Of a stretch of 37,673 bases of DNA, positions 11,899-16,722 are shown piece after piece. Source of the DNA: Chitinophaga pinensis (lineage in GTDB: Bacteria; Bacteroidota; Bacteroidia; Flavobacteriales_D; Crocinitomicaceae); contig CALPMC020000021.1 in assembly GCA_943324565.2 (NCBI GenBank), positions 1 to 37,673 of the forward strand, read 5' to 3'. Below the pieces are notes generated by a model. It worked only from the letters and a program-made list of their open reading frames with translations, made no database searches and was not told the origin of the DNA. Position 1 is the first letter of the stretch. The number at the start of each line of letters is the position of its first letter. The position numbers were made by a program, and so were the translations under genes.

Positions 11899-12976
11899 TC
11901 GTTTGTAATGTTTTGTTTAGAGATTTTAACTTAAGTCGATTAAAAACAAGAATTAAAATCCCAAATAATAAAAACGTAAATGTAAGGCAAATCCATTGGT
12001 TAGTCAAATAAACTAGTGGGAGAAAAGCACCTATAATAACTAAATTCAAAATTGCTAGAATTAAACTTACCTTAAAATGTGATAATTTATAAAAATCTAA
12101 AATTACATGATGTATATGATTTCTATCTGCATCAAAAGGACTTTTTCCATTGTAAATTCGCATCAAAAAAACACGACTTGTATCTATTAAAGGAACTGAT
12201 AAAATTGCTAAAATTAAAAAAGGCCAATTCTGTAATGGTAGTCTCATTCTTAACAAACTACTCTCCTCTAATGCAAAGAATCGTAAAACAATGAGAGCAA
12301 TTATAAAACCTAAAATTAAAGAACCGGTGTCACCCATAAATATCTTATACTTTTTAGAGAAATTAAATCGAAGAAATGCTATAACAGCACCAAGAGCAAC
12401 AATTGAGATTAGAAATAATGTTTTATCATCAATTATATATGAAATAACAGAAAATGAACTAAAGATAACTATTGATATAAAACCTGCCAAACCATCAATA
12501 CCATCAATCAAATTGAACGAATTGATTATTGAAACGACAAGAAAAATAGTAAAAAATGAACTTGCAAAATAATGAACTCTTTCAAGATTAAAAAGTCCAT
12601 GCAAATCAGTTAAATGGAAAGAATTATCGAATACTAAAAACAATGCAGCAACAATTTGAGCAATCATCTTTGTTGTTGATGAAACAAGAACTAAATCATC
12701 TTTTAAACCAATAATGAATAAAACAGTTAATCCCGGAATAATGCTATTTGTAATCTTCAAATCGTCGTATGGATTAATAAAACGAAATGATAGCATTAAA
12801 CAGACATAAAAAGCAACTCCCCCTATATTTGGAATAGCATCTTGGTGAGAAGTTCTTTCATTTGGTAAACTGTGAAAGCTTCTAACTTTTGCAATTGTTC
12901 TTATTTTTGGTAACATAATATAAGCAACCGAAAAAGAGACGAAGAAAAAAAACAAAGAGACTAAAATAATAGACAT
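11885..12976 (-). CDS. Polytopic PNPT: MraY/WecA-like undecaprenyl-phosphate sugar-1-phosphate transferase
   Basis: DDLVLVSSTTKMIAQI, NSFNLIDGIDGLAG, FMGDTGSLILGF, NHIHHVILDF motifs. Confidence 0.92.
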   Translation of the reverse strand: MSIILVSLFFFFVSFSVAYIMLPKIRTIAKVRSFHSLPNERTSHQDAIPNIGGVAFYVCLMLSFRFINPYDDLKITNSIIPGLTVLFIIGLKDDLVLVSSTTKMIAQIVAALFLVFDNSFHLTDLHGLFNLERVHYFASSFFTIFLVVSIINSFNLIDGIDGLAGFISIVIFSSFSVISYIIDDKTLFLISIVALGAVIAFLRFNFSKKYKIFMGDTGSLILGFIIALIVLRFFALEESSLLRMRLPLQNWPFLILAILSVPLIDTSRVFLMRIYNGKSPFDADRNHIHHVILDFYKLSHFKVSLILAILNLVIIGAFLPLVYLTNQWICLTFTFLLFGILILVFNRLKLKSLNKTLQTNEKK

Positions 12977-13023: not shown

Positions 13024-13695
13024 TCAAAATGTTCTTGTAGGCAATCCATTAAACCAATTGTATACAATATTGCTTTTTGGCTTTAAAATTACGCAAGCTG
13101 TAACTATTATTATTTTAAAATCAACAGAAAAACCTCTATTCTCTTGATACCATTTTTCTAATTTACCTTTAAATGGATAAATTGTGTTTTTGTAAAAATC
13201 CCAAGTATCCCCCCCCTTATCTTTTACTGCTGAAATTAACTCCTCCTCATCTCTAAAAACAATGGAACCAATTCCAGTTAGTCCTGGTTGCGCATTATAA
13301 ATCACTTTTTGTACATCATCTGGATAGGCATCAAAACTAATTGGCATTACGGGTCTTGGGCCAACAAAACTCATATCTCCTAACCAAATATTCATCAATT
13401 GAGGTAATTCGTTTATTTTACTTTTTCTTAAAAATCCTCCCATTGGTGTGATACGTGGATCGCGTTTTGTAGTTATAATTCCACCAGCCATATTTGGGCT
13501 ATCTTTAAGCATCGTGGCAAATTTCAAGATACTAAAACGTTTGTTTTTATATCCAACACGTTCTTGTTTATAGAAAATATAACCTTCTCCAGTCAGTTTT
13601 AATCCAATAATGATAGGAATCAAAAGTGGGGATAAAATCAACAAACAAATGGAAGACAATAAAATATCACAAAATCTTTTAAAAATTAGATACAT
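13024..13695 (-). CDS. Monotopic initiating sugar-phosphate transferase (WcaJ/PglC family)
   Basis: KRFCDILLSSICLLILSPLL, YKQERVGYKNKRF, LRKSKINELPQLMNIWLGDMSFVGPRPV, QPGLTG motifs. Confidence 0.93.
   Translation of the reverse strand: MYLIFKRFCDILLSSICLLILSPLLIPIIIGLKLTGEGYIFYKQERVGYKNKRFSILKFATMLKDSPNMAGGIITTKRDPRITPMGGFLRKSKINELPQLMNIWLGDMSFVGPRPVMPISFDAYPDDVQKVIYNAQPGLTGIGSIVFRDEEELISAVKDKGGDTWDFYKNTIYPFKGKLEKWYQENRGFSVDFKIIIVTACVILKPKSNIVYNWFNGLPTRTF
13209..13216. repeat. Homopolymer (C)8 = (G)8 on the coding strand inside the sugar transferase gene
   Basis: ...AAG GGG GGG GAT... (DKGGD); longest G/C homopolymer I saw in the window. Confidence 0.95.
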
Positions 13696-13716: not shown

Positions 13717-13820
13717 TAATGCGCGAAATCGCTAATGGGTTGGTAGGAGAAACCGCTGATGCGTAGTGTTGCTAATTCGCTGATTTGCAAAATCTCTGAT
13801 GCGTAGGATTGCTGATACGA
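13717..13820. repeat. Degenerate octamer array I (13 x 8 bp), including a 40-bp (5 x 8) direct repeat
   Basis: + strand units: TAATGCGC GAAATCGC TAATGGGT TGGTAGGA GAAACCGC TGATGCGT AGTGTTGC TAATTCGC TGATTTGC AAAATCTC TGATGCGT AGGATTGC TGATACGA. Confidence 0.8.
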
Positions 13821-13834
13821 TTTTTTAAAGTTAC

Positions 13835-14191
13835 TCATCTTTCAAATTTACTATACAAACTGTTCAACTGATTTGTTATCCTTTCCAACTTTTCTCTTAA
13901 TTGATTGTAATCACTTTCTCTAATTAGTTCTAGATCATTCGCTAGAACAAGGAAATTGACTACTTCAATTGCTGAACCAAAAGAAATACTAATAAATCGA
14001 GCTTTATCTTTTTCAGTTTTCCTAGACATTCCTTCAGCAATATTAGCTGAAATACTTAAGGATGCTCTTCTTATTTGTGAAGTCAAACCAAATCTTTCAT
14101 CATCAGGAAAACTTTTTGTAACAGAATATATTTCTTTAACAAATCCTCTTGAATTTTGCCAGACTTCTAATTTCTCAAAGTAGAATTGCAT
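13835..14191 (-). CDS. Four-helix-bundle protein (S23/IVP-like family, structurally related to Avd)
   Basis: 118 aa; FEKLEVWQNSRGFVKEIYSVTKSFPDDERFGLTSQIRRASLSISANIAEGMSRKTEKDKARFISISFGSAIE is characteristic of the family. Confidence 0.92.
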   Translation of the reverse strand: MQFYFEKLEVWQNSRGFVKEIYSVTKSFPDDERFGLTSQIRRASLSISANIAEGMSRKTEKDKARFISISFGSAIEVVNFLVLANDLELIRESDYNQLREKLERITNQLNSLYSKFER

Positions 14192-14222
14192 TAGTTTTGA
14201 GTTTTATTATTAATTTTTTAGG

Positions 14223-14286
14223 TTGAATCGCATATTGCAGATGTTCTGAATTGCAAATTCGCGATTCTGCAAATATGCTAATCTAT
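14223..14286. repeat. Degenerate octamer array II (8 x 8 bp)
   Basis: + strand units: TTGAATCG CATATTGC AGATGTTC TGAATTGC AAATTCGC GATTCTGC AAATATGC TAATCTAT; GC recurs every 8 bp. Confidence 0.75.
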
Positions 14287-14287
14287 A

Positions 14288-15499
14288 TTACATTTTTTGG
14301 TCTAAGGTTTTTCCAGTTTCTATATGTTGAAAATCTGGTATATACTTTTGTAATAATTCAACAATGGAAGATTTATCATAATTTCCAGAATCCATTAGTG
14401 ATTTTAGGTCTGTTATAGTGGCTTCAATTTCATTTTTAGATAATTTTCTTGCATTCTTAATCACACCTAAGCTTGAAAATATTTCTTGATCAACAAAATC
14501 TGTTTCTGTATAAAATTCCTCATAAAGTTTTTCTCCTGATGTGTCAGACTCGAAGAAATAAACTGGATATGGATCAGTTGTTTTTAAATTTCGTGATTTC
14601 TCAATTGCCTCTTTATCAGAATTACAAAGTACAATTTTACGATTTGATTGATTGAAAAAATCTTCTGTTATTTGCTTAAAATAGGTCATTTCTTCATCAT
14701 CTAATTTTGGAAAAAAGATTTCACCCGAATTCCCAAGCATACATGCTAACATACAAATTTGACCACTTTCTTCTGGAGAAACAAAAAATCGCTTAACATC
14801 CGACGGACAAGAAATTGGTTGATTTTTATATAAACGTTCTATATAACCAGCTAGTAGAGAACCATTTGAAAAAGCAACATTCGCAAAACGAGCTGTAGTA
14901 ATTTGAAGTTCAGAGCTGTAAGCCATAATAACCTCTTCCATTAATTTTTTACTTGCCCCCATAACATTAACTGGGTTTGCAGCTTTATCTGTTGAAACAC
15001 AGAAGAAATGTTCTGGTTTGTGATCTACTAATAAATCTAAAAACTCTTTCGCTTTAAACACATTATTTTCAATCATGGCTTCAATCGAATATTTATCTTT
15101 TTCACTGCGAACATGTTTATGTGCAGCAAAATTGGCAACAATATGAAATGGACCTTCTTCTACAAACATTTTTCTAAAAACAGGATCTCCAAAACTCATT
15201 GGATACGTTTTGTAATCATCTGGGACAAATTGATTGTCTGAGCTTCGTAAATCTCTTGTCAATTCAGTTAAACCATTTTCATTCGTGTCAACCACAAATA
15301 ACTTAGTTGGTTTGAATTTCAAAATTGCTTTAATATACGATGAGCCAATTGTCCCTGCTCCACCTATTACTAAAACAGATTTACCTTTGATTTTATGAGA
15401 TAAAATAGCTGAATTTTGTTGAATGTCCTGTTCAAAAAAACTTGATTCTCTTTTTGTAATAAATTTCCCAATGAAACTTGGAATGTCGATTAAATTCAT
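14288..15499 (-). CDS. Nucleotide-sugar 4,6-dehydratase, short CapD/FlaA1/PglF-like SDR
   Basis: VLVIGGAGTIGSSYIKAI Rossmann motif; ANPVNVMGASKKLMEE (MxxxK active-site motif typical of FlaA1/PglF). Confidence 0.85.
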   Translation of the reverse strand: MNLIDIPSFIGKFITKRESSFFEQDIQQNSAILSHKIKGKSVLVIGGAGTIGSSYIKAILKFKPTKLFVVDTNENGLTELTRDLRSSDNQFVPDDYKTYPMSFGDPVFRKMFVEEGPFHIVANFAAHKHVRSEKDKYSIEAMIENNVFKAKEFLDLLVDHKPEHFFCVSTDKAANPVNVMGASKKLMEEVIMAYSSELQITTARFANVAFSNGSLLAGYIERLYKNQPISCPSDVKRFFVSPEESGQICMLACMLGNSGEIFFPKLDDEEMTYFKQITEDFFNQSNRKIVLCNSDKEAIEKSRNLKTTDPYPVYFFESDTSGEKLYEEFYTETDFVDQEIFSSLGVIKNARKLSKNEIEATITDLKSLMDSGNYDKSSIVELLQKYIPDFQHIETGKTLDQKM

Positions 15500-15532
15500 T
15501 TTTTAGTTTTCTTTAGATAGTAATTTATTTGT

Positions 15533-15572
15533 GATTACGCAGATTCTCGAATTTGCAGATTTGCGAATTCGC
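15533..15572. repeat. Degenerate octamer array III (5 x 8 bp)
   Basis: - strand units: GCGAATTC GCAAATCT GCAAATTC GAGAATCT GCGTAATC, directly downstream of the aminotransferase stop. Confidence 0.82.
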
Positions 15573-15573
15573 T

Positions 15574-16722
15574 TCACTTTTTATAAAATTCTTTTACTTT
15601 TTTGACAACTTCGTTCATTTGTGCTTGGGTTATTCCAGCCGAACTTGGAATGCTTATACAAGTTTCGTAAATACTATCTGAATTATCGTTTACAGAAACA
15701 TAAATTTCATCTTTGAACATTTCTAATTGATTCATTGGCATCCAAAAAGGACGTGATTGAACTCCATTTGCATTAAGAAATTCTAATAATCCTCGCATTT
15801 GTTTAGTTTTAAAAGTAAACAACCAACTATTCGCAGAAACATCTGCTGAAACTTCTTGAAAAATTATATCTCCTACCCCATTTAATTCGGATCGGTAAAA
15901 GGAATCCATTTCTTGTTTACTTATCAATAAATCAGGAAATTGTTCCATTTGTGCTACACCTATTGCTGCTAATATGTTTACTAATCGATAGTTGTAACCA
16001 ATTTCATCGTGAATATATTCCATTTGACTAGCCTTTGCTTGAGTCGTTAAATGTTTGGCTTTTTTAGCAAGTTCCTCATCATCAGTTACAATAACTCCAC
16101 CACCACCAGTTGAAATGATTTTATTTCCATTGAAACTAAAAACGCCAAATTTACCAAAAGTTCCAGCATGTTTTCCTTTGAAATAAGAGCCTAACGCTTC
16201 TGTACTATCTTCAATAATATCTAAATAATATTTTTCAGCAATTGAAACAAGTCGATCGATGTTGCCCATATTTCCTAAAACATGAACTGGCATAATTGCC
16301 TTGATTCTTTTTAGGGTAATTAAATGGTGAGTAAAAATACCTTCTTCAGATTCTTTTGTAAATGTATTTTCAGAAAGGTATTTTTCTAATAAATCCAAAT
16401 CCATTTGCCAATCAGATGCGTTAACATCAATTAAAATAGGAGTTGCACCTGTGTATTTTATTGCATTAAGCGTAGCTATGAAAGTTATATTTGGTGCAAT
16501 TACATGGTCTTCAGAAGTAACACCTGAAAGAATTTGCGAGATGTGTAAGCCAACTGTTCCATTCATGCAAGCAACACCATATTTTGCTCCTACATAATCA
16601 GCAACCATCTGTTCAAACTGATTTACATAAGCGCCTGCTGAAGAAATCCATCCTGTATCTAAACAATCTTTAACGTATTTCCATTCGTTGCCGTTAAGGT
16701 GAGGTATTGAAAGTGGAATCAT
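15574..16722 (-). CDS. DegT/DnrJ/EryC1/StrS PLP-dependent sugar aminotransferase
   Basis: IPLSIPHLNGNEWKYVKDCLDTGWISSAGAYVNQFE; SFNGNKIISTGGGGVIVT PLP-lysine motif. Confidence 0.93.
   Translation of the reverse strand: MIPLSIPHLNGNEWKYVKDCLDTGWISSAGAYVNQFEQMVADYVGAKYGVACMNGTVGLHISQILSGVTSEDHVIAPNITFIATLNAIKYTGATPILIDVNASDWQMDLDLLEKYLSENTFTKESEEGIFTHHLITLKRIKAIMPVHVLGNMGNIDRLVSIAEKYYLDIIEDSTEALGSYFKGKHAGTFGKFGVFSFNGNKIISTGGGGVIVTDDEELAKKAKHLTTQAKASQMEYIHDEIGYNYRLVNILAAIGVAQMEQFPDLLISKQEMDSFYRSELNGVGDIIFQEVSADVSANSWLFTFKTKQMRGLLEFLNANGVQSRPFWMPMNQLEMFKDEIYVSVNDNSDSIYETCISIPSSAGITQAQMNEVVKKVKEFYKK

Follow-up and report, generated by a model that had tools for sequence, protein, structure and literature searches.

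Octamer ladders around an S23/IVP gene in a polysaccharide locus of a Bacteroidota genome

We describe ladders of degenerate octamers at three consecutive gene junctions around a gene of the S23 or 23S rRNA intervening sequence protein (IVP) family. The ladders lie in a 37,673-nt stretch of DNA, contig CALPMC020000021.1 of the assembly GCA_943324565.2, which is referred to as the window. We take the arrays, with a probability of about one half, to be ladders that flank an S23/IVP cassette akin to the intervening sequences (IVS) of 23S rRNA, and that a ring-shaped S23 protein would read.

The octamer register in the window

Read along the minus strand, the aminotransferase gene comes first, followed by ladder III, the dehydratase gene, ladder II, the S23 gene, ladder I and the sugar transferase gene.

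13024..13695, minus strand: bacterial sugar transferase gene, downstream of ladder I (PF02397, E=7.3e-48)
13717..13820, minus strand: ladder I, the downstream flank of S23, 13 octamer units reading GC..AT.. in the gene direction (z=6.5)
13756..13806, minus strand: 11-base word present twice, 40 bp (5 units) apart, within ladder I (seen in the sequence)
13835..14191, minus strand: S23 / 23S-rRNA-intervening-sequence-protein gene, four helix bundle of 118 aa (PF05635, E=5.3e-38; TIGR02436)
14223..14286, minus strand: ladder II, the upstream flank of S23, 8 units, directly behind the dehydratase stop codon (z=3.3)
14288..15499, minus strand: nucleotide-sugar dehydratase/epimerase gene, between ladders II and III (PF02719, E=6.9e-41)
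15533..15573, minus strand: ladder III, a satellite one gene upstream, 5 units, directly behind the aminotransferase stop codon (z=4.7)
15574..16722, minus strand: DegT/DnrJ/EryC1 aminotransferase gene, upstream of ladder III (PF01041, E=2.2e-93)

The arrays start at, or shortly after, the stop codons of the upstream genes. An earlier reading of the letters alone (the sequence-only reading) had described an 8-bp register at these three junctions and proposed autocorrelation at lag 8 as a check; positions and units were as described, and the signal in all three gaps was stronger than in dinucleotide shuffles. The mean autocorrelation at lags 8, 16 and 24 gave z=6.5 (P≤0.0002) for array I, z=3.3 (P≤0.0016) for array II and z=4.7 (P≤0.0004) for array III, and 8 was the best period among 4-12 in each gap (P≤0.0002, 0.015 and 0.0004, respectively). 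Other top lag-8 stretches within the window start at 12917, 17429, 26901 and 29129, and none of them exceeds arrays I-III. The GC at a fixed phase that had been claimed for the units was also found, as 16 of the 20 GC dinucleotides in the three gaps lie on the best 8-phase of their own gap, against 6.7 ± 1.1 and a maximum of 12 in 5000 shuffles (P≤0.0002). GC stands at phase 1-2 in 16 of the 26 octamer units, which makes for a strict register with a loosely defined unit. The core is matched at five of six letters by at most two successive units in array I and by four successive units in arrays II and III, and array II contains a one-base slip close to its end (lag 23 scores 0.51). The 40-bp direct repeat of array I was confirmed (CTGATGCGTAG at 13756 and 13796).

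The arrays had been set apart from CRISPR and from ordinary tandem repeats, and rightly so. A CRISPR array, with near-identical repeats of about 21-48 nt and unique spacers, is excluded by the 8-nt register and the loose units. An ordinary tandem repeat or microsatellite is excluded by the spacers of neighbouring units, which are as unlike one another (identity 0.10) as those of different loci (0.11), and by Tandem Repeats Finder, which reported two-copy 16-mers at 13769 and 15539 and nothing more. Rfam 15 gave no match above the gathering score, either for the window or for five related loci. Folded as RNA, the whole cassette of the window (592 nt) scored z=-1.8 against shuffles with no clear stem between the flanks, and a stem formed by the window's own flanks was thus not convincing; ladder II, the upstream arm alone, folds better than shuffles (z=-3.2).

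Ladder unit and S23 subfamily

S23/IVP genes are present in 116 of 148 sampled Bacteroidota genomes, in up to 16 copies, and the genome of the window has five. The octamer ladder was shown, by sequence comparison, to belong to the subfamily of the window's S23, unit and subfamily going together. Among the closest named relatives of this protein are those of Mangrovimonas, Mesohalobacter, Paenimyroides, Chryseobacterium lacus, Saprospiraceae, a Flavobacteriales MAG and two species of Sphingobacterium, and GCRAATNN-type ladders surround S23 in all of these. We counted 8-spaced GC[AG][AG]AT pairs within 400 nt of the S23 gene and scored two or more as positive. The ladder was present at 10 of 11 full-length relatives at least 59% identical to the window's S23, at 0 of 14 relatives below 59% and at 0 of 113 other S23 loci, while shuffled sequence reached at most 1. 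Drift of its units leaves the window itself with a score of only 1 under this strict criterion. Furthermore, the flanks of the subfamily share polarity, with a direct score well above the inverted one, unlike other S23 loci. The tie between unit and subfamily could nevertheless reflect the shared history of a slowly spreading element, without recognition.

The recurrent intergenic element postulated from the sequence does recur, in the same genome and in relatives, beside the four-helix-bundle gene, and its suggested link to polysaccharide loci holds for this S23 subfamily. The module of S23 and ladder sits mostly in polysaccharide loci, flanked by different gene pairs in different genera, and the genes around window-type S23 of relatives encode epimerases, UDP-sugar dehydrogenases, Wzc-like proteins and cytidylyltransferases. 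Ladders at several successive junctions occur also in the relatives L290, L293 and L302. Comparison of array length among relatives, as had been proposed, gave an aminotransferase-dehydratase gap of 20 nt in the congener G003, where ladder III is absent, 74 nt in the window and 449 nt in L290, the closest relative. The L290 gap (1277-1725) holds ladder III expanded to 449 nt with higher-order repeats (AAATCAGCAAATTCACGAATCAGCANTAAGCAGTATGAAAATCAA...). In L292 a gap of 913 nt (898-1810), two genes from S23, opens with another strict 8-nt ladder with a unit of about CGAATANN, and in two Saprospiraceae a gene for an AAA_14/DUF4143 ATPase adjoins the window-type S23 (L294:1659-2780, L298:1274-2527).

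The element is not specific to capsule genes, since orphan ladders occur elsewhere in the same genome. The motif was found at C155:976, after a stop codon and before a gene reading like uvrB, and at C46:8277 and C5:47200; a relaxed motif gave 26 matches, many of them overlapping, against 3 for the reversed control. Searching from the ladder side, we found exact three-unit GCRRAT ladders in 20 of 393 Bacteroidota genomes, a few of the matches falling in long open frames and some orphans resembling small hairpins. No S23 gene lies within 1.5 kb of 28 of the 29 ladder loci examined, and the S23 at the single remaining locus is only 37% identical. Thus ladders can exist without a neighbouring S23, and the link runs from gene to ladder and not the reverse. 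In the window's genus, direct-repeat arrays were present in 22 of 55 S23-adjacent gaps, in 39 of 269 other gaps of the same genomes and in 0 of 83 gaps of S23-less congeners. Random gaps across the phylum showed no difference between genomes with S23 (9/184) and those lacking it (5/142), and a genome-wide link between S23 and arrays, strong within the genus, was rejected for the phylum sample.

Two further groups of ladders were observed. Genomes of genus g30 (G135, G542, G587, G666, G677; L326-L330, L341-L345) carry up to 63 GCRRAT ladder matches each (GCAGATGT, GCAAATAT), several of which make small hairpins between genes, with no S23. In G015 (L064, L065) many gaps are full of TGTGCTAATG-type ladders broken by a CCGCCGCGGCGG palindrome, and no RVT_1 match was found there.

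Inverted arms at other S23 loci

Comparison of flanks further showed that other S23 subfamilies come with different ladders, of 7- or 8-nt units, which in most cases form inverted arms. In relatives, short-period arrays line the S23 genes, and their unit changes from locus to locus. In the pooled flanks (70 upstream, 59 downstream) lag 7 reached z=16.7 on both sides, with lags 14 and 21 strong too; lag 8 and its multiples make a weaker second class among these 129 flanks, and the window falls in this 8-nt class. The arms were then compared at 50 S23 loci held out from forming the idea, with genes of 100-250 aa as controls. Matched with the upstream flank, the reverse complement of the locus's own downstream flank had a median rank of 2.2 of 50 (score 29 against 17 for other loci), compared with 22.2 of 50 for control genes. 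Moreover, the RNA duplex energy of cognate S23 arms had a median rank of 11 of 83, against 40 for control genes.

G003, G005 and G007 carry the S23 cassette at the rpsO-pnp junction, with a gap of 592-761 nt; the gap lacking S23 in the congeners G002 and G015 and in others measures 91-93 nt. Because the same gap is empty in congeners, the cassette at this site is a discrete insertion. One orthologous S23 locus in 30 genomes of one genus carries CTRAGNNN upstream and CTYAGNNN downstream in a strict 8-nt register, the downstream arm scoring 0.62, 0.61 and 0.57 at lags 8, 16 and 24. Apart from the R/Y position its core is conserved at 94% or above, and the spacers of neighbours are unrelated. The upstream arm most often has five units (17/30), the number of subunits in a pentamer, but window-type ladders run from 3 to 23 units. 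Among these 30 genomes CAAAG upstream shifts with CTTTG downstream (rho 0.79, a value inflated by species relatedness), and R/Y covariation between the arms (CTGAG-CTCAG) was absent (rho 0.10). Over all S23 pairs, protein identity showed no overall positive correlation with arm similarity, which appears only above about 55-70% protein identity, in pairs that are mostly syntenic.

Three single loci were observed besides. The rpsO-pnp gap of G000:C9 (L225) has CCCCTTCTTCGCCGCGGCGAAGGGGG hairpins inserted before pnp, and S23 is missing there. At L005 (G000:C4:7135-7446) the S23 gene lies beside a tRNA-like stretch (CCCCGGTGGCGGAAC...GGTTCGATTCCGGCCCGGGG) and a GAGAGTGAG hairpin. A below-cut-off PF05635 match at L045 (G009:C43), 1486-1827 and beyond, is probably the Avd of a diversity-generating retroelement, as a reverse transcriptase match (G009:C43:2794-3474) lies about 0.6 kb away; no inverted arms were seen in its flanks.

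The inverted arms could instead make the element an IVS-like RNA hairpin cassette, an account that we regard as possible but doubtful. The flanks would pair within the transcript, RNase III or another RNase would cut the stem and S23 would be a passenger; the 7-/8-nt units would be a by-product of stem growth and shrinkage, and the element would tune 3' end formation and operon splitting. Such a hairpin agrees with the locus-specific inverted arms of most S23 loci, with the duplex energy of cognate arms, with the joint shift of CAAAG and CTTTG at orthologous loci, as far as its inflated rho permits, and with the IVS of Coxiella, a stem-loop cut by RNase III (PMC4990558). However, the window element and its subfamily have flanks of the same polarity and no strong stem, and a stem alone does not require a fixed core with free, uncorrelated spacers.

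This last property was determined on window-type units sandwiched between two exact matches (n=55, 21 of them from L297), and on these only, which avoids selecting a unit by its own sequence. Position 1 is G in 96% of them, position 2 is C in 100%, position 5 is A in 89% and position 6 is T in 98%, positions 3 and 4 are purines, and positions 7-8 are free. The 2-nt spacer is the same in 10% of neighbouring units and in 11% of units from different loci. The ladders also favour one strand, with 84 sense against 19 antisense pairs. A fixed GCRRAT core with a spacer that is free and uncorrelated between neighbours argues against recent slippage: slippage copies whole units, so that spacers would match, and neutral decay erodes core and spacer alike, and a selected spaced core fits the pattern. 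Slippage, one origin offered by the sequence-only reading, is thus not supported as the sole maker of the arrays; a fixed core with a free spacer is best read as a putative protein-binding array, which that reading also offered.

Neutral simple-sequence expansion would make the arrays the product of 7-/8-nt slippage in weakly constrained gaps, followed by decay, with S23 merely inserting there. Although heptamers are reported to outnumber other long simple repeats in most genomes, with polymerase slippage suggested (Mrazek 2007, as cited in PMC4679880), exact runs occur (e.g. GCAGATGT in G666) and the gap of one junction varies between 20, 74 and 449 nt among relatives, this explanation is unlikely, and as sole cause it is disfavoured. 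The unit is tied to an S23 subfamily across genera, the core is fixed beside free and uncorrelated spacers, and matched inverted dialects stand on both sides of S23. It is about as improbable that the ladders are kept as recombination joints, same-polarity homology at successive junctions letting polysaccharide genes swap, for although ladders stand at several consecutive junctions and the circumstantial part of the proposed shuffling role survives (from genus to genus the S23 subfamily is found between other pairs of polysaccharide genes, and in Chryseobacterium lacus two wza-wzc-S23 blocks are homologous up to the ladder and part inside it), this is a single breakpoint case, ladders also lie far from polysaccharide genes (uvrB), and degenerate homology of 8 bp is poor for RecA.

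Possible recognition by S23 and comparison with known systems

In the cassette reading that we prefer, a ring-shaped S23 oligomer would read the ladder, either as RNA in the transcript or as DNA, with one core per subunit contact, in a way similar to the reading of spaced triplets by TRAP. Five chains are seen in each of the solved S23 relatives 2gsc and 2rld, and a Xanthomonas S23-family protein was described as a toroidal homopentamer (PMC4990558). A ring protein together with a ladder of short cores and free spacers suggests multivalent recognition, comparable to that of triplets by TRAP, and on this analogy multivalent recognition by S23 is the most likely reading of the ladder. Reading by S23 would mark the cassette ends and would decide what becomes of the cassette or of the polysaccharide mRNA around it; copies of the ladder might then seed neighbouring junctions and act as homology for rearrangement of the locus. 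More tentatively, S23/IVP proteins at large may be ring-shaped, sequence-specific ladder binders, each subfamily with its own core at a 7- or 8-nt pitch and co-evolving with its ladder.

In open-licence PMC full text we found no link between intergenic 7-/8-nt arrays and S23 genes and no function assigned to S23/IVP, and literature searches by unit sequence gave unrelated matches or none. A subfamily-specific ladder with a fixed core and a free spacer is a concrete candidate for the S23 ligand, and the question of what S23 does becomes addressable by binding assay and deletion. It would also join two unconnected reports, on the heptamers of the Coxiella IVS and on intergenic heptamer arrays. 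Repeat finders and gene-neighbourhood scans may take these ladders for other arrays. If S23 proteins are ladder binders, this huge family would amount to a regulatory or mobile module that marks itself, with most of its Bacteroidota members living outside rRNA.

Earlier work has recorded IVP genes within cas loci (PMC3936711) and among listed CRISPR-associated genes (PMC10910872). Avd of diversity-generating retroelements is a relative by fold and a distant match to the window protein, but the window contig has no reverse transcriptase. Such a retroelement was rejected for the window (C21), as the only RVT_1 match of the genome lies on contig C27; arrays made by reverse transcriptase were likewise rejected, as several ladder-bearing genomes, including G002 and the ladder-rich G015, gave no RVT_1 match. 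REP/REPIN elements with their RAYT transposases share with the ladders dispersed intergenic repeats that flank a system gene and have orphan copies elsewhere, but REPs are palindromes of 20-40 nt and the ladders have units of 7-8 nt; S23 is not known to be a nuclease. TRAP reads (G/U)AG-N2-3 repeats. It resembles the proposed system, as a model of how it may work only, in joining a ring protein to a series of short cores set apart by free spacers, and differs in a protein unrelated to S23 and in another core.

Closer in form are the TAACTGA direct-repeat arrays of Beggiatoaceae, Cyanobacteria and five Bacteroidetes (MacGregor 2015, PMC4679880), which are likewise intergenic and fixed in orientation, with a 7-nt unit, sporadic across phyla and of no known function. 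They consist of one exact heptamer, whereas the ladder unit differs between S23 subfamilies with the core alone kept, and no link to S23 was reported (S23 is absent from PMC4679880).

The 23S rRNA IVS shares with the window element an S23/IVP protein (PF05635, E=5.3e-38) and short repeats flanking its gene, and with most Bacteroidota S23 loci complementary ends. The window element differs in its place between dehydratase and sugar transferase genes, outside any 23S rRNA helix, in a unit of 8 nt with a fixed core and a free spacer, in flanks of the same polarity that form no clear stem (592-nt RNA, z=-1.8) and in ladders of its type spreading to further junctions. In Coxiella burnetii the IVS has three tandem heptamers and a degenerate copy immediately ahead of the S23p start, their copy number varies between strains, and the IVS is cut by RNase III (PMC4990558). 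These heptamers, together with the RNase III cut, support a role at the RNA level for the inverted class of S23 loci, and their position before S23p ties the window element, although it lies outside rRNA, to elements of the IVS kind.
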